A program made the translations under genes and the position numbers. From Stappia sp. TSB10P1A (lineage in GTDB: Bacteria > Pseudomonadota > Alphaproteobacteria > Rhizobiales > Stappiaceae), in the NCBI RefSeq assembly GCF_900185725.1, contig NZ_FYAU01000036.1, positions 682,001 through 746,000 of the forward strand: a stretch of 64,000 nt of DNA, in the 5' to 3' direction. Positions within the stretch are counted from its first letter, which is position 1. Each line of letters starts with the position of its first letter. Below, piece after piece: positions 8,818 through 15,284 of this stretch. The notes beneath the pieces were generated by a model, which did no database searches, was not told where the DNA came from, and worked only from the letters and a program-made list of their open reading frames with translations.

Positions 8818-10794
8818 CTATTCATCCCGGCGGATGACGCCGGTGACCGCACCGGCGAAGATCGCCGCGACGATCCAGCCGAGGATCACGAAGACCTTCT
8901 GGGCATGGTGAGCGAACCAGCCCAACCAGCCGCGTGCGGGCGACGGCGCCCAGGCCGCCTCCTGGCCCAGCTCGACCAGCGGCAACACCACGTCGACGGC
9001 ATAGAACAGGGCGTTGAAGCTCTCGTAGTCGCGACCAGGCCCCGTCGCGGAGGACCAGATCGCGGCGGCGTTGACGGAAAGGCCCGGCAGCGACAGGCAC
9101 GGCTCGCCGCCACCCTCGCGCAAGCAGTTCGCATCAAGCGCCTGACCGCCCGGCGCATTGGCGATCTGCGTCCAGCCCTCCGACACCAGCACGACATCGG
9201 AATTCGGCGCGAAATCGCCGGCGCGCCAGGTGGCGAAGGATAGGCCGGCCATCACCGCGACCATGGCAAGCAGCGTCCAGATGCTGCGCATGGGAGCATG
9301 GCCATAGCCGGCGACGAGATTGAACAGCGCGTTGCGAAGCTGCAGCAAAGCCCCTGCCGTGCGCGCAACCGTGTTGGCCGCGAGCAACCGGTTGCGGAAA
9401 TCGAGCCGGGCCAGGTCCCGCTCATAGGCGCTGGTGCCGGCTTCGAAGGGACGGTCTTCATGGCGCAAATTGAAGGCCGGCGCCAATGTTCGGGCAAGAG
9501 CCGCGGCTTCGCGAGCCGACTTTTGAACCGCCTCAGAAGCGGCCTCCGAGCCCTCGCGGCTGAACCTCCGCACATCGCGCCGATGATGGATCTCCTGCCG
9601 CAATCGGCTTCGGACGCCCCGGTGCCGCTCCCGCTCCATGGCGATGAGCACCGCCCGCGCCTCGGCCCGGTGGCCACTGGCGTGCAGCACCTTGGCGAGT
9701 TGCTGGTAGGGCTGAGGGTGAAAGGCGCCGTTGGCCTTCGCGCCCTTGCGCAGCCAGGCGAGGCGCATCTCCTCGTCGAGCGGGCCAACGAGATTGTCAT
9801 AGGTCAGGCCGACAAGATGGAGAGCGTCCGGTTTCTCCCAGCTCTCGCTGTCATCGACTAGGTCGAAAACATGAGCCGAGACGAGGCCGACCGCGCCTGT
9901 CACCGAGGCCACACCGCGCCAGAGAAAGCTCCCCTCCACGCGCAGGCGCTGCGCGTGGAGCGCCTCACCTTTACTACCGTCAAGCTTGGTACCACCGTCG
10001 AGCCTGGCGCCCTCGCAGGAGAGCTGGCCGCCGATAACGGCGCCCGCAAAACTCACCTCCCCCGTCGAGTTCAAGCCGCGCAGAAACACATCGACCGAGA
10101 CCCCCGCGCCCTGCACGTTCAGCGCCGTGCCGCCACCGCCGTCGAGCGTCGCCCCCTCGAAGTCCAACTGGCCACCGATCGCGGCGACCGCAAAGCTCAC
10201 CTCCCCCCGTGAAATCAGGCCCCCCAGAAACACCCCGCCCGCAACTTGCGCGCTTTGCGCGTTCAGCGCCTTGCCATCACCACCGTCTAGTGCAGCGCCC
10301 GCACAAGCGAGTTGACCGCCGATGGAGGCGCCCGCGAGCAGGATCGATCCTGAAGACTCGATCCTGTCCAGCCACACATCGCCAGCGACATGGCAATAGT
10401 TGGCCGAAAGCCCTGTCAGCCGGCTCCCCTCGATATCGAGCCTTTGCAGATGGGCTTGCGTGGCGTCGATCTCCTCCGGAAACACGCAGTTATTAAGCAA
10501 TGTCGCACCGCGCGCGGTTGCGAAGGCGAGATCGAGAGTGCCCTCGACCCAGGCGCTTTCGACCCAGATGCCATGTTCATGGGTGCGGAAGGCCTCGCAG
10601 CCGCCCAGGATGAGATAGCGCAGCAGGTCGGCGCGGATCGTCCGCTCGGGCGAAGCGTGTTGCGGCCGCGTGCCGTCGCCCAGCACGACCGGCTCGCCGC
10701 TCCGGCATTCGGCGAGAAGCTGTTCCTCGGCCGGCGTCAATTCGCCGGCCCGGCGCCTCTCTTCAATCTGCGAATAGCTGCGGATAAGCGCCAT
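8818..10794 (-). CDS. Pentapeptide-like repeat membrane protein of unknown function
   Basis: A 658-residue protein with three visible parts. Residues 1-110 are soluble and contain RTIRADLLRYLILGGCEAF. Residues ~110-310 form a repetitive beta-helix-like region in which GxVSFAGAxIGGQLxxEGAxLDGG recurs about three times with roughly 40-residue spacing. Residues ~330-480 look helical. Two hydrophobic segments follow, at about 500-520 and 631-652, with a ~110-residue loop holding a Cys pair between them. Proteins of this appearance are sometimes labelled membrane-associated oxidoreductase in alphaproteobacterial genomes, but I see no cofactor motif and would not assign an enzyme activity. It lies 84 bp downstream of the cupin-XRE regulator on the same strand. 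Confidence 0.72.
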   Translation of the reverse strand: MALIRSYSQIEERRRAGELTPAEEQLLAECRSGEPVVLGDGTRPQHASPERTIRADLLRYLILGGCEAFRTHEHGIWVESAWVEGTLDLAFATARGATLLNNCVFPEEIDATQAHLQRLDIEGSRLTGLSANYCHVAGDVWLDRIESSGSILLAGASIGGQLACAGAALDGGDGKALNAQSAQVAGGVFLGGLISRGEVSFAVAAIGGQLDFEGATLDGGGGTALNVQGAGVSVDVFLRGLNSTGEVSFAGAVIGGQLSCEGARLDGGTKLDGSKGEALHAQRLRVEGSFLWRGVASVTGAVGLVSAHVFDLVDDSESWEKPDALHLVGLTYDNLVGPLDEEMRLAWLRKGAKANGAFHPQPYQQLAKVLHASGHRAEARAVLIAMERERHRGVRSRLRQEIHHRRDVRRFSREGSEAASEAVQKSAREAAALARTLAPAFNLRHEDRPFEAGTSAYERDLARLDFRNRLLAANTVARTAGALLQLRNALFNLVAGYGHAPMRSIWTLLAMVAVMAGLSFATWRAGDFAPNSDVVLVSEGWTQIANAPGGQALDANCLREGGGEPCLSLPGLSVNAAAIWSSATGPGRDYESFNALFYAVDVVLPLVELGQEAAWAPSPARGWLGWFAHHAQKVFVILGWIVAAIFAGAVTGVIRRDE

Positions 10795-10878: not shown

Positions 10879-11499
10879 TCACCAGACCGGCGGCGTGGTG
10901 ATCCAGAGAATGCGGGTCCTGCCATTGGCGATGTTGCGGAACTTGTGCGGCAGCGTGCTCTCGAAATAGAACGAGTCGCCCTCCGCCAGCCGGTAGACCG
11001 CGCCGTCGACATAGAGCTCCAGCCGCCCCTCCAGGACGACGCCGCATTCCTCGCCCTCGTGATTGTACGGGTCCTCGCCCGACCCGCCGTCAACCTCCAG
11101 CGCGATCTCCATCACCTGCAAGGCGCCCTCGTTGCGCGCGGTGAGGAATTCCTTGACCATGCCGCGGTCGCCGAAGTCGGCGCGGCGGCGCTGGTTGACG
11201 CGCACGATCCGGCGGCTCTCCTGCTCGAGCGCCGCCTCGGCATCGCCGAACAGCGCGTGCACGGGGATGTCCAGCGCGCTGCAGACCGCGCGCAGGGCGC
11301 GGATCGACGGCGAGGAGATGCCGCGCTCGATCTGGCTGAGCAGACCGACCGAGACATTGGCCGCCTCCGCGACACGCTGCAGGGACAGGCCGCGCGCCTG
11401 CCGCGCCCGCCGCACCGCCAGGCCCAAGGTGCGATCGTCGTCCGTCGTTTCATCGCCGATCTCGGCGATCCCGGGACCCGGCGATCCGGAATTCATCAT
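10879..11499 (-). CDS. XRE family regulator with C-terminal cupin domain (PuuR-like)
   Basis: An N-terminal helix-turn-helix (RRARQARGLSLQRVAEAANV, then VGLLSQIERGISSPSIRAL) is followed by a cupin ligand-binding barrel with EEC/LEGRLELYVDG and the closing LPHKFRN segment. This architecture is shared with PuuR and related repressors of amine and amino acid catabolism. The start at 11499 (or the adjacent ATG at 11496) has GGAGG upstream at 11511-11515. A longer frame from a GTG at 11550 would run through the inverted repeat at 11519-11532, so I reject it. It is divergent from the ABC/FAD-oxidase operon, which it probably controls. Confidence 0.88.
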   Translation of the reverse strand: MMNSGSPGPGIAEIGDETTDDDRTLGLAVRRARQARGLSLQRVAEAANVSVGLLSQIERGISSPSIRALRAVCSALDIPVHALFGDAEAALEQESRRIVRVNQRRRADFGDRGMVKEFLTARNEGALQVMEIALEVDGGSGEDPYNHEGEECGVVLEGRLELYVDGAVYRLAEGDSFYFESTLPHKFRNIANGRTRILWITTPPVW

Positions 11500-11518
11500 A
11501 CGCTCAAACGCCTCCAGG

Positions 11519-11532
11519 TTCACCTTGGTGAA
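11519..11532. promoter_or_regulatory. Candidate operator copy 1, TTCAC-N4-GTGAA
   Basis: A perfect inverted repeat TTCAC CTTG GTGAA lies 20 bp ahead of the cupin-XRE start codon. The same half-sites and 4-bp spacer recur at 11649 and 11699, which points to a specific dimeric repressor. Autoregulation is inferred. Confidence 0.72.
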
Positions 11533-11648
11533 AAAATCCGAATCCCTCACCAGATCGGCAGATCATGCGGTTTCGACCGGAAGTTTAAGCTGTATCAGCC
11601 GTATGGGCAATTCAAAACCTCCGCGCTGCGGCCTTCCAGAGAGCAAAA

Positions 11649-11662
11649 TTCACGACAGTGAA
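11649..11662. promoter_or_regulatory. Candidate operator copy 2, TTCAC-N4-GTGAA
   Basis: A perfect inverted repeat TTCAC GACA GTGAA in the middle of the divergent intergenic region. It is centred exactly 50 bp from copy 3, about five helical turns, so the two sites face the same side of the DNA. Confidence 0.72.
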
Positions 11663-11698
11663 CAATTTCAGCAGACTCCGATTGAAACCTTGTTCGTT

Positions 11699-11712
11699 TT
11701 CATTATGGTGAA
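11699..11712. promoter_or_regulatory. Candidate operator copy 3, TTCAT-N4-GTGAA
   Basis: The sequence TTCAT TATG GTGAA has one substitution from a perfect dyad. It lies about 93 bp ahead of the binding-protein start, in an AT-rich stretch suitable for the ABC operon promoter. Confidence 0.62.
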
Positions 11713-11804
11713 AAGTCGGATAGCCGAGCGGATATCCGCCCCATCGACGCCCGTCCGCCCGCGCGGCATGTGGCCGATGCAGCCAAACACCAGAGGAAAC
11801 CGCT

Positions 11805-12542
11805 ATGATAAAGAAGCTTGCAGCCACGCTGATCCTGTCGGTCGGACTGACCCTGCCGTCGCTCGCCAAGGACCTCACCGTCGGCGTGACCACGACCGGC
11901 GTGCCCTTCACCTTCGTCGACACCGCCACCCAGAAGCCGACCGGCGCCATGGTCGACATCGCCGAGGCCATCGCCGCCGAGGCCGGCCTGACCGTCAAGT
12001 TCGAGCTCTCCGCCTTCTCCGCGCTCATCCCGGCGCTGACGACGGGCAAGATCGACCTGATCTCCGCCGGCATGTTCGCCTCCGAAAAGCGCATGGAAGT
12101 CGTGGACTTCTCGACCGGCGTCTACACCTATGGCGATGCCATGTTCGTCGCGGCCGCGGACGACACCGCCTACACGCTCGACATGCTGAAGGGCGAGACC
12201 GTCGGCGCGCAGGTCGGCACCGTCTTCGCCGACAAGCTGAACAGCCTCGGCATCTTCAGCGAGGTGAAACAATACGACTCCCTCGCCGACATCATGCGCG
12301 AGGTGAAGCTCGGCCGGATCAAGGCCGGCTTCGGCGACAAGCCGATCATCGCCTATCAGATCGCCCAGAACCCGGACTTCGGCGTGCGCCTCGTCGAGGG
12401 TTACACGCCGATGAGCGAGGGGACGGTGGCGCTGGCGGTAGCCAAGGACAATCCCGAGCTGCTGGAGACGGTCAACGCCGCCCTCGCGAAGATGTCGGAC
12501 AGCGGCGAGCTCGCCAAGATCTTCGCCAAATACGGCCTCTGA
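11805..12542 (+). CDS. Polar amino acid/amine ABC transporter substrate-binding protein
   Basis: A 245-residue periplasmic binding protein of the family-3 (SBP_bac_3) type. A signal peptide occupies about residues 1-21 (MIKK, hydrophobic core, then SLA-KDL). The mature chain has the conserved start LTVGVTTTGVPFTFVD, the GAMVDIAEAIA segment, and the FDLISAGM-like strand LISAGMFASEKRMEVVDFS. It delivers a small amino acid or amine to the permease encoded next. Ligand identity is not readable; the downstream amine oxidase and PuuR-like regulator favour an amine or amino acid. Confidence 0.92.
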   Translation: MIKKLAATLILSVGLTLPSLAKDLTVGVTTTGVPFTFVDTATQKPTGAMVDIAEAIAAEAGLTVKFELSAFSALIPALTTGKIDLISAGMFASEKRMEVVDFSTGVYTYGDAMFVAAADDTAYTLDMLKGETVGAQVGTVFADKLNSLGIFSEVKQYDSLADIMREVKLGRIKAGFGDKPIIAYQIAQNPDFGVRLVEGYTPMSEGTVALAVAKDNPELLETVNAALAKMSDSGELAKIFAKYGL

Positions 12543-12622: not shown

Positions 12623-13279
12623 ATGAACAAGTTCCTCTCTCAGTCCGCCGAGTATCTTCCCTTCCTCCTGTCCGGCGTCTGGCTGACGATCGCCGTCACC
12701 GTGCTGTCGCTGACGCTGGCGACCGGGCTCGGCCTGTTCTGGGCGCTGTGCCGGACATCGGGGATCCGGGCACTGGCAACGCCGGTGCGCCTGCTTGTGG
12801 AGTTCATCCGCGGCATCCCGATCCTCGTCATCCTGTTCTACATCTATTTCGTGATGCCTGAGGTCGGCCTCGATCTCACCGCCTTCCAGGCCGGCGTCAT
12901 CGGCCTTGCCCTGACCTATTCCTGCTATATCGGCGAGACGTTCCGCGCCGGCATCGAGGCGGTCGACCGGGGCCAGGTCGAGGCGGCCAAGTCGATCGGC
13001 ATGCGCCAGGGCCTGATGATGCGCCGGGTGGTGCTGCCGCAGGCCTTCCGCATCGTCGTCCCGCCCTACACCAACAACATCGTGATGCTGCTGAAGGACT
13101 CCTCGCAGGTGTCCGTCATCTCGGTCGCAGAACTCACCATGCAGGGCAAGATGCTGGCCTCCTCCACCTTCAACAACCTGACGGTCTTCACGCTGGTCGC
13201 CCTGCTCTACCTGTGCCTGACGCTGCCGCTGAACTTCGTCATGCGCCGGGTGGAAGTGGCAATGGGGAAAGCCCGATGA
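12623..13279 (+). CDS. Amino acid ABC transporter permease (HisM/GlnP family)
   Basis: A 218-residue integral membrane permease with about five helices. LLVEFIRGIPILVILFYIYF is the typical N-terminal block and EAAKSIGMRQGLMMRRVVLP is the EAA loop that docks on the ATPase. A single permease gene implies a homodimeric pore. It is 80 bp after the binding-protein gene and overlaps the ATPase start by 4 bp (ATGA). Confidence 0.95.
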   Translation: MNKFLSQSAEYLPFLLSGVWLTIAVTVLSLTLATGLGLFWALCRTSGIRALATPVRLLVEFIRGIPILVILFYIYFVMPEVGLDLTAFQAGVIGLALTYSCYIGETFRAGIEAVDRGQVEAAKSIGMRQGLMMRRVVLPQAFRIVVPPYTNNIVMLLKDSSQVSVISVAELTMQGKMLASSTFNNLTVFTLVALLYLCLTLPLNFVMRRVEVAMGKAR

Positions 13280-14007
13280 TCACCTTCGAGAACGTTCACA
13301 AGGCCTATGGCTCCCACGAGGTGCTGAAGGGCATCGACGCCGAGATCGGCAAGGGCAAGGTGGTCTGCCTGATCGGCCCCTCCGGTTCGGGCAAGTCCAC
13401 CCTGCTTCGCTGCGTCAACGGGCTGGAGACCTACCAGCAGGGCCGCATCGCCATCAACGGCGAGCAGGTCGACGCGACCAGCTCGACGATCCACGCGATC
13501 CGCACCAGGGTTTCGATGGTGTTCCAGCGGTTCAACCTGTTTCCCCATCGCACTGCGCTGGAAAACGTCATGGAGGGGCCGATCCATGTGCTGCGCGAGG
13601 ATCGCCAAGTGGCGCGGCAACGCGCCGAGGACCTGCTGACGCGGGTGGGCCTGGCCGAGAAGATCGACGCCTATCCGGCCTCCCTGTCGGGCGGCCAGCA
13701 GCAGCGCGTGGCGATTGCCCGGGCGCTGGCCATGCGGCCGGAGGCGATCCTCTTCGACGAGCCGACCTCCGCCCTCGATCCGGAAATGGTGGGCGAGGTG
13801 CTGCAGGTGATGCGTTCGCTCGCCGAGGAGCACATGACGATGCTCGTCGTCACCCACGAGATCCAGTTCGCGCGCGAGGTCGCCGACAACGTGCTCTTCC
13901 TCGACGGCGGGCGCATCGTCGAGCAGGGGCCGGCCGCCGAGGTGCTGCGAAACCCGCAGCATGAACGCACCCAGGACTTCCTGCGCAGGGTCACCCATCC
14001 CGTCTGA
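13276..14007 (+). CDS. Amino acid ABC transporter ATP-binding protein (GlnQ/HisP family)
   Basis: A 243-residue ATPase with Walker A GPSGSGKS, the GlnQ-type Q-loop MVFQRFNLFPHRTALENV, signature LSGGQQQRVAIARALAM, Walker B ILFDEPTSALDPE and the switch His in VVTHEIQFA. The ATG overlaps the permease stop. An upstream in-frame start at 13213 would lie inside the permease gene and is rejected. The FAD oxidoreductase gene follows 11 bp later. Confidence 0.96.
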   Translation: MITFENVHKAYGSHEVLKGIDAEIGKGKVVCLIGPSGSGKSTLLRCVNGLETYQQGRIAINGEQVDATSSTIHAIRTRVSMVFQRFNLFPHRTALENVMEGPIHVLREDRQVARQRAEDLLTRVGLAEKIDAYPASLSGGQQQRVAIARALAMRPEAILFDEPTSALDPEMVGEVLQVMRSLAEEHMTMLVVTHEIQFAREVADNVLFLDGGRIVEQGPAAEVLRNPQHERTQDFLRRVTHPV

Positions 14008-14018
14008 GGCCGCCGACC

Positions 14019-15284
14019 ATGTCCCACACCATTCCCTCGCTCTGGGCCGCGACCGCCCGCCCGCCGCTGACCCTGCCGCCGCCCGAAGGCGATATGCGGG
14101 CCGATGTGGCGATCGTCGGCGCCGGCTATACCGGCCTTGCCGCGGCACTCAGCCTGTCCCGCGGCGGCGCCTCCGTCATCGTGCTCGACACGCAGGCGCC
14201 TGGCTTCGGCGCCTCGGGCCGCAATGGCGGTCAGGTCATTCCGGGCATCAAGATCGATCCGGACGAGATCGACACGGTCTTCGGCGAGGCGACCACCGAG
14301 TTTGTCGGCAAGACGGCCGAGACGACCTTCGCGCTGATCGAGGCGGAGGGAATCGCTTGCGAGGCAAGCCGCGACGGCTGGGTCCAGGGCAGCGTCAAGC
14401 GGGCACATCTCGGCCTGCTCGAGCGGCGGGCCAGGCAGTGGCAGGCTAGGGGCGCCGATGTCGACCTGCTCACCCGCGACGAGGTCCGTGCCCACACGGG
14501 AACGGCGATCTTCGAAGGCGGCTGGATCGACCGGCGGGCCGGCAGGCTCCACCCGCTGAACTATGCCACGGGCCTTGCGCAGGCCGCGCTCGCGCAAGGG
14601 GCGGACATCCGCGTCGGGGCGGCGGCAACCCGGCTGGCGCGTGAGGGACAGGGCTGGCGCGTGAGCCTTGCCAATGGCGCCAGCGTGCTCGCCGGCCAGG
14701 TGATCGTCGCGACCAACGGCTATAGCGGGGCGCTGTTTCCCAAGCTGAGGGCAAGCCTCGTGCCGGCGGGAAGCTTCCAGGTCGCGACCGCGCCGCTGCC
14801 GGACGCACTTCTGCAGCAGATCCTGCCCGGACGCTGCGTCGTCTCGGACACCCGCCGCGTTGGCAACTATTTCCGGATCGGGCCGGAAAACCGCTTGATG
14901 ATGGGCGGACGCGGCACCTTCTCCGACACCCCGGCGGACGCGGCCTACACCCGGCTGATCGGCAACCTGCACCGGACCTTCCCGGAAACCCGCGGCCTGC
15001 CGATCACCTATCGCTGGACCGGCCGGGTCGCCATGACGGCCGACCACCTGCCGCATGTCCACCAGCCGCTGCCGGGCCTCACCATGGCGGCGGGGTATAA
15101 CGGGCGCGGCGTGGCGCTTTCCAGCGCGCTTGGCACGGCGATCGGCGGCCACCTTCTCGACGGTGCGCAGCCCCTGCCGTTCCGCTTCACGGACATCCGC
15201 CCGCTTCCCGTCCACGCACTGCACCCGATCTATGCGACGCTGGCGATCTGGTACTATCGCCTGCGCGACGCGCTGGAGACCTGA
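14019..15284 (+). CDS. FAD-dependent oxidoreductase, DAO family (gamma-glutamylputrescine oxidase-like)
   Basis: A 421-residue flavoprotein that oxidises an amine or amino acid, probably releasing an aldehyde or oxo-acid, ammonia and H2O2. The dinucleotide-binding motif VAIVGAGYTGLAAALSLSRG lies near residues 30-49. FGASGRNGGQVIPG is the PuuB/glycine-oxidase-like FAD signature. The C-terminal MAAGYNGRGVALSSALG closes the flavin site. It is the last gene of the ABC operon, so the cassette imports and then oxidises the same class of substrate. The exact substrate is not known. Confidence 0.88.
   Translation: MSHTIPSLWAATARPPLTLPPPEGDMRADVAIVGAGYTGLAAALSLSRGGASVIVLDTQAPGFGASGRNGGQVIPGIKIDPDEIDTVFGEATTEFVGKTAETTFALIEAEGIACEASRDGWVQGSVKRAHLGLLERRARQWQARGADVDLLTRDEVRAHTGTAIFEGGWIDRRAGRLHPLNYATGLAQAALAQGADIRVGAAATRLAREGQGWRVSLANGASVLAGQVIVATNGYSGALFPKLRASLVPAGSFQVATAPLPDALLQQILPGRCVVSDTRRVGNYFRIGPENRLMMGGRGTFSDTPADAAYTRLIGNLHRTFPETRGLPITYRWTGRVAMTADHLPHVHQPLPGLTMAAGYNGRGVALSSALGTAIGGHLLDGAQPLPFRFTDIRPLPVHALHPIYATLAIWYYRLRDALET

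Follow-up and report, generated by a model that had tools for sequence, protein, structure and literature searches.

The 305-bp gap between a putative regulator gene and the transport genes divergent from it in this Stappia genome contains three copies of one inverted repeat, raising the question of which protein, if any, docks there and what it controls. Within the window (the whole 64,000-nucleotide stretch of DNA that we analyzed), the initial annotation had described three identically built dyads at 11519, 11649, and 11699, two of them perfect and one carrying a single change, and the sequence agrees. Dyad 1 (11519–11532; TTCACCTTGGTGAA, read as TTCAC-CTTG-GTGAA) is a perfect 5-4-5 repeat proximal to the regulator, dyad 2 (11649–11662; TTCACGACAGTGAA, TTCAC-GACA-GTGAA) is likewise perfect and forms the promoter-distal partner in a pair, and dyad 3 (11699–11712; TTCATTATGGTGAA, TTCAT-TATG-GTGAA) has one change in the dyad and overlaps the predicted −10 element of the transport operon. 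The start-to-start distance between dyads 2 and 3 is exactly 50 bp, as annotated, and the likely ATG codons at 11499 (minus strand) and 11805 reproduce the annotated length of the divergent region. We consider, with a probability of roughly 0.87, that the three dyads are operators of the divergent XRE-cupin protein, which would most likely repress both the operon encoding a substrate-binding protein (SBP), permease, ATPase, and oxidase and its own gene.

The candidate regulator is encoded on the minus strand (10879–11499) and comprises 206 residues from its likely ATG, with an N-terminal HTH_3 domain (47.9 bits against a cut-off of 23, E = 1.3e-12) and a C-terminal Cupin_2 domain (68.8 bits against a cut-off of 27.2, E = 3.3e-19). 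Judged by sequence conservation, it has the palindromic site beside its own gene that is characteristic of XRE-cupin proteins. Its best NCBIfam match is Escherichia coli PuuR (NF007408, model positions 3–182 of 185), which is described as sensing putrescine in passages of PMC7901475. At 84 bits, below the curated cut-off of 211, identity with PuuR was ruled out, and the earlier label "PuuR-like" holds as a resemblance only. The reading frame remains open up to an alternative GTG start at 11550, which would yield a 223-residue protein whose frame runs through dyad 1, so that dyad 1 could be annotated as part of the gene; the ATG at 11499 is favored by the start codons of relatives. Dyad 1 lies 19 bp upstream of this ATG, and at 13 of the 14 loci with at least 64% identity a dyad (strict or with one change) occupies positions −100 to −115 from residue 24, the exception being locus L038. 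By this position dyad 1 probably gives the regulator control over itself, in keeping with the annotated placement of copy 1 on the regulator's leader; counting against that part of the claim, a survey of 26 loci revealed no conserved regulator-side promoter beside the regulator-proximal dyad. Adjoining the regulator is a gene (8818–10794, minus strand) for a 658-residue protein with a pentapeptide-repeat match, and in the nearest relative (L037) this protein was matched in two parts, one 58% and the other 39% identical.

One explanation for the dyads is coincidence in an A+T-richer intergenic stretch. Shuffled windows indeed averaged 2.53 strand-matches to TTCAYN4GTGAA at up to one mismatch, against nine in the 64-kb window itself, a number reached by 2 of 100 shuffles. 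Exact matches in the window are confined to dyads 1–3, and no further match with up to one mismatch lies between the regulator and SBP genes. The genome-wide search proposed in the initial annotation (5.13 Mb) found TTCAYN4GTGAA at 11 places and TTCAYN4RTGAA at 17, three at this locus and 14 elsewhere. At 14 sites per 5.13 Mb, 0.0008 would be expected per 305 bp, so for a region set in advance the probability of three by chance is of the order of 1e-10. Thirteen of the 14 outside dyads were inspected, and these lie within long open frames; since a chance 503-codon frame likewise covers the dyads at the locus, an open frame is a weak test of the other genomic dyads.

To place the dyads in an evolutionary context, we searched for the regulator in 14 genomes of the genus, 87 of the family, 397 of the order, and 385 of the class, and a search of genome contigs returned 27 loci; ortholog loci are drawn from among the matches listed (the best rows of each search). 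At 123 loci we extracted the DNA preceding the regulator, to a maximum of 600 bp, and ten whose upstream end was already counted were dropped, leaving 113 regions that were scored for the strict dyad TTCAYN4RTGAA. The initial annotation had staked its reading on conservation upstream of orthologous regulator/ABC pairs, and conservation is what we found: among the matches listed, the strict dyad is present in 14 of 14 regions at 250 bits or more (at least 64% identity; 33 sites), in 4 of 4 at 180–250 bits (49–53% identity; 7 sites), in 8 of 54 at 110–180 bits (13 sites), and in 0 of 41 below 110 bits. In shuffled regions (20 shuffles per similarity set), mean site counts were 0, 0, 0.05, and 0.05 from the closest to the most distant set, and in the same order the regulator genes plus the DNA downstream of them held 0 dyads in 21,590 bases, 0 in 6,400, 2 in 84,968, and 0 in 64,150. 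Because the loci are related and were taken from the matches listed, these counts are not independent events. In the nearest relative (L008 and L037, on one contig), all three dyads occur at the same spacings and their inner bases differ. The close loci include named Stappia, Insolitispirillum, Tistrella, Hoeflea, and a Hyphomicrobiales bacterium. Counting against the reading, L038 has a single strict site, located where the SBP gene begins, and an intergenic pair with one change in each dyad.

We next compared regulator loci with and without the transport operon. For this comparison, 78 extra stretches were hand-picked from the family, order, and class matches listed; 174 loci with a regulator match were reduced to 131 by removing copies and short ends and then to 113 with at least 110 bits and at least 300 bp (18 dropped), a set that differs from the 113 upstream regions above. 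A divergent SBP and permease are found at 29 of the 113 loci, and at least two dyads (strict or with one change) occur at 27 of these 29 versus 7 of the 84 others. At least one strict dyad is present at the same 27 operon loci versus 10 of 84 others, and these ten, which carry a strict dyad without the SBP operon, count against the operator reading. When the 99 more distant loci are considered alone, at least two dyads occur at 14 of 16 operon loci versus 6 of 83 others (Fisher p = 1e-10, uncorrected for relatedness). The two exceptional operon loci (L132 and L092) also count against the reading: each is missing the strict dyad and has, upstream of the regulator, one TTCA-N7-TGAA instead of the N6 pair. 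A quick tree of the regulators, with SH-aLRT support only and several long branches, places 26 of the 29 operon-linked proteins in two separate groups of 13 and three outside, with four changes of label. The recognition helix S[VI]GxxSQ[IV]ERG is found in all 29 operon-linked regulators; it is also present at the dyad-less loci L217 and L105, which counts against the operator reading.

We also searched without reference to any protein, using two TTCAN6TGAA dyads separated by 35–38 bases. Matches occurred in 22 of 397 order genomes and 8 of 385 class genomes; five genomes belong to both samples (two with a match), which gives 777 distinct genomes and 28 that match. Of the 28 dyad-pair loci, 22 lie at a regulator with SBP and permease genes and six have none of these, while the backward control of the search gave 0 among the matches listed in both samples. 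The presence of the dyad in all 14 of the close ortholog regions and the outcome of this pattern-first search led us to reject a chance origin, which they in effect refute and to which we assign negligible probability. A further alternative is that the dyads are bound by another regulator of the operon rather than by the adjacent XRE-cupin protein. In its favor, the sites also accompany the operon at loci whose XRE-cupin protein has only 37–45% identity; against it, all 22 pattern-first matches beside an SBP gene also hold an XRE-cupin gene, none of the 28 has an SBP without one, and passages of PMC7901475 describe XRE-cupin proteins as binding beside their own genes. We therefore regard another regulator as improbable. 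The ortholog, co-occurrence, and pattern-first results agree in tying the dyads to the XRE-cupin regulator and the divergent transporter/oxidase operon, as the initial annotation had predicted. Since the same repeats, often paired about 50 bases apart, precede the same transporter/oxidase genes in many relatives, the dyads are very probably docking sites of the neighboring regulator.

The position of dyad 3 bears on the direction of control. TTGAAA (predicted −35, 11682–11687, plus strand) and TATGGT (predicted −10, 11704–11709, plus strand, inside dyad 3), separated by 16 bases, form the only promoter-like match in 11480–11810, a finding that is weak alone (shuffles give 0.3). When the promoter register is compared over the 27 operon loci with dyads, a TTG begins at exactly −17 from the promoter dyad at all 13 close operon loci, so that a predicted −10 falls inside that dyad, and likewise at L171. 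In each of the 13 close loci, the second base of the hexamer within the dyad is A and the sixth is T. For five of these 13 (L133–L136 and L074, with pairs 104–106 bp apart), the middle dyad was taken as the promoter dyad after the sequences had been viewed. In the other 13 loci, which form a second clade, the TTG precedes the proximal dyad by 30 bases in 11 and by 32 in two. No structured RNA was found in 11300–12000 in Rfam at gathering scores, nor any terminator-like site in 11480–11810. The protein might instead activate the operon from dyad 2, which lies upstream of the predicted −35, while repressing itself from dyad 1, and NceR, an XRE protein that activates its target according to passages of PMC10470515, counts against the repressor reading. 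The dyad covering the predicted −10 at 13 of 13 close operon loci speaks against activation, as does the description, in parts of PMC7901475, of Pseudomonas XRE-cupin proteins with determined regulons as inhibitors; we consider activation quite unlikely.

The 50-bp pair raises a separate question, namely whether its spacing is a property of the protein or of the promoter. Among the 29 operon loci, with dyads carrying one change counted, the spacing is 49–52 bp in 21, 104–106 bp in five, and 37 bp in one (L171), and two have no pair. In the five loci of the longest class (L133, L134, L135, L136, and L074, one family), the outermost dyad sits at the SBP start codon. The dyads may be operators on which dimers act singly, with the 50-bp distance set by where sites are placed around a promoter. 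The second-clade dyads closely bracket the predicted −35 and −10 elements (13 of 13), where the distance could thus be fixed by promoter length; spacings of 49–52 bp are not whole turns at 10.5 bp per turn; and the pair in L171 is 13 bp shorter than 50, exactly the amount by which the two promoter registers differ. Against this, eight close operon loci keep 49–50 bp although their TTG lies at −17 rather than −30, so that one spacing exists with two promoter registers. In addition, the bases between dyads in the window are 41–50% identical to those of ten other loci, compared with 45–47% for shuffled spacers; identity thus lies at background among these relatives, where the distance is shared and the sequence is not. 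Spacers within the second regulator group are 47–75% identical, and some between-group comparisons reach 56–61%. We regard singly acting dimers as possible, if rather doubtful.

The recurrence of 49–52 bp with two promoter registers, together with a window spacer at the shuffled background, suggests contact between bound dimers. The occurrence of the pair with two registers 13 bp apart, and with L171 13 bp shorter, is an argument, short of proof, that the protein rather than the promoter underlies the distance. The annotated "about five helical turns" was loose, as 50 bp corresponds to 4.76 turns at 10.5 bp per turn, and binding on one DNA face is therefore doubtful for 49–52 bp even as the recurring spacing favors the accompanying idea of dimer contact. 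From the two regulator groups, the 49–52-bp spacing, and the two registers 13 bp apart, we tentatively propose, at somewhat short of even odds, that this branch of XRE-cupin proteins forms a fixed two-dimer complex whose dimers meet across about 4.75 turns of DNA, bending or clasping the promoter between them.

In the mechanism that we favor, one dimer would sit on each TTTCA-N6-TGAAA-like dyad. The dimer at dyad 3 would cover the −10 element and keep RNA polymerase off, the dimer at dyad 2, 50 bp upstream, would probably help by dimer-dimer contact, and a third dimer at dyad 1 would block the leader of the regulator gene itself. Release from the DNA may follow when the cupin domain binds a small nitrogen compound that the operon's products import or oxidize.

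This arrangement resembles known systems in part. Passages of PMC7901475, and of PMC12724383 for DbuR, describe XRE-cupin repressors whose palindromic binding sites lie next to their own genes and within core promoters. Of the described arrangements that we found, that of DbuR in Pseudomonas putida comes nearest: as passages of PMC12724383 describe it, DbuR is an XRE-cupin repressor whose gene diverges from an operon for an amino acid oxidase and a transporter, and its palindrome region includes the predicted −10. Unlike the sites here, the DbuR palindrome is 20 bp long and of other sequence, there is one 44-bp protected region, and a 50-bp pair does not appear in the described passages of that paper. 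The DbuR-type gene set (oxidase DbuA, Rid2 protein DbuB, transporter DbuC) was not matched either, as the operon here consists of SBP, permease, ATPase, and DAO-family genes. Pseudomonas aeruginosa PauR, PsdR, PA0535, PA4987, and others, as characterized in parts of PMC7901475, share the domain layout, local action, and palindromic sites, with targets in amine and amino acid uptake and oxidation; the PsdR site differs, being TTAAG-N5-CTTAA in the relevant passage of PMC10965056. The terms cooperativ-, tetramer, spacing, and 50 bp are absent from the main text of PMC7901475, and a word search of the available text of that paper and PMC10965056 gave no mention of dimer cooperation. Among the papers listed, none described this operator or the 50-bp pair in its title or the beginning of its abstract; a survey of XRE palindromes exists (PMC12565409), and its figures or supplements, beyond the portion of text available, might include the motif.

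What the regulator would control is partly legible from the operon. On the plus strand follow the SBP gene (SBP_bac_3, 11805–12542), which is the divergent partner in relatives too, an ABC permease gene (BPD_transp_1/HEQRo_perm_3TM, 12623–13279), an ABC ATPase gene of the polar amino acid type (13276–14007, its start codon chosen by hand from the open frame), and a gene for a DAO-family FAD oxidoreductase (14019–15284; DAO E = 6.5e-61). The annotated amine uptake/oxidation operon is thus borne out as to transporter and oxidase, while "amine" is plausible only, the oxidase's best NCBIfam model being the pipecolate oxidase AmaA at 272 bits, below a cut-off of 600. At L137 the regulator and two strict dyads adjoin an oxidase and a PotA-type ATPase (391.6 bits, above its cut-off of 355.6), and L131 has an SBP_bac_8 protein with ABC genes at a strict-dyad locus. 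Together with the AmaA match, these loci favor amines or amino acids in general as the substrate class. Sequence searches of solved structures returned general relatives only and did not settle the substrate. At L137 and L131, and also at L009 and L010, strict dyads directly face the oxidase gene.

Overall, the locus appears to be a solid case of mostly ordinary local gene control, in which the fixed pair is the most interesting detail. An unstudied regulator gains an exact, testable candidate operator together with a predicted target operon, whose substrate could be sought with a reporter built on the operator. The recurring spacing provides a direct test of cooperation between XRE-cupin dimers. 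The dyad and its 49–52-bp pair also constitute a simple DNA signature by which the same module can be recognized in the raw DNA of other Alphaproteobacteria.
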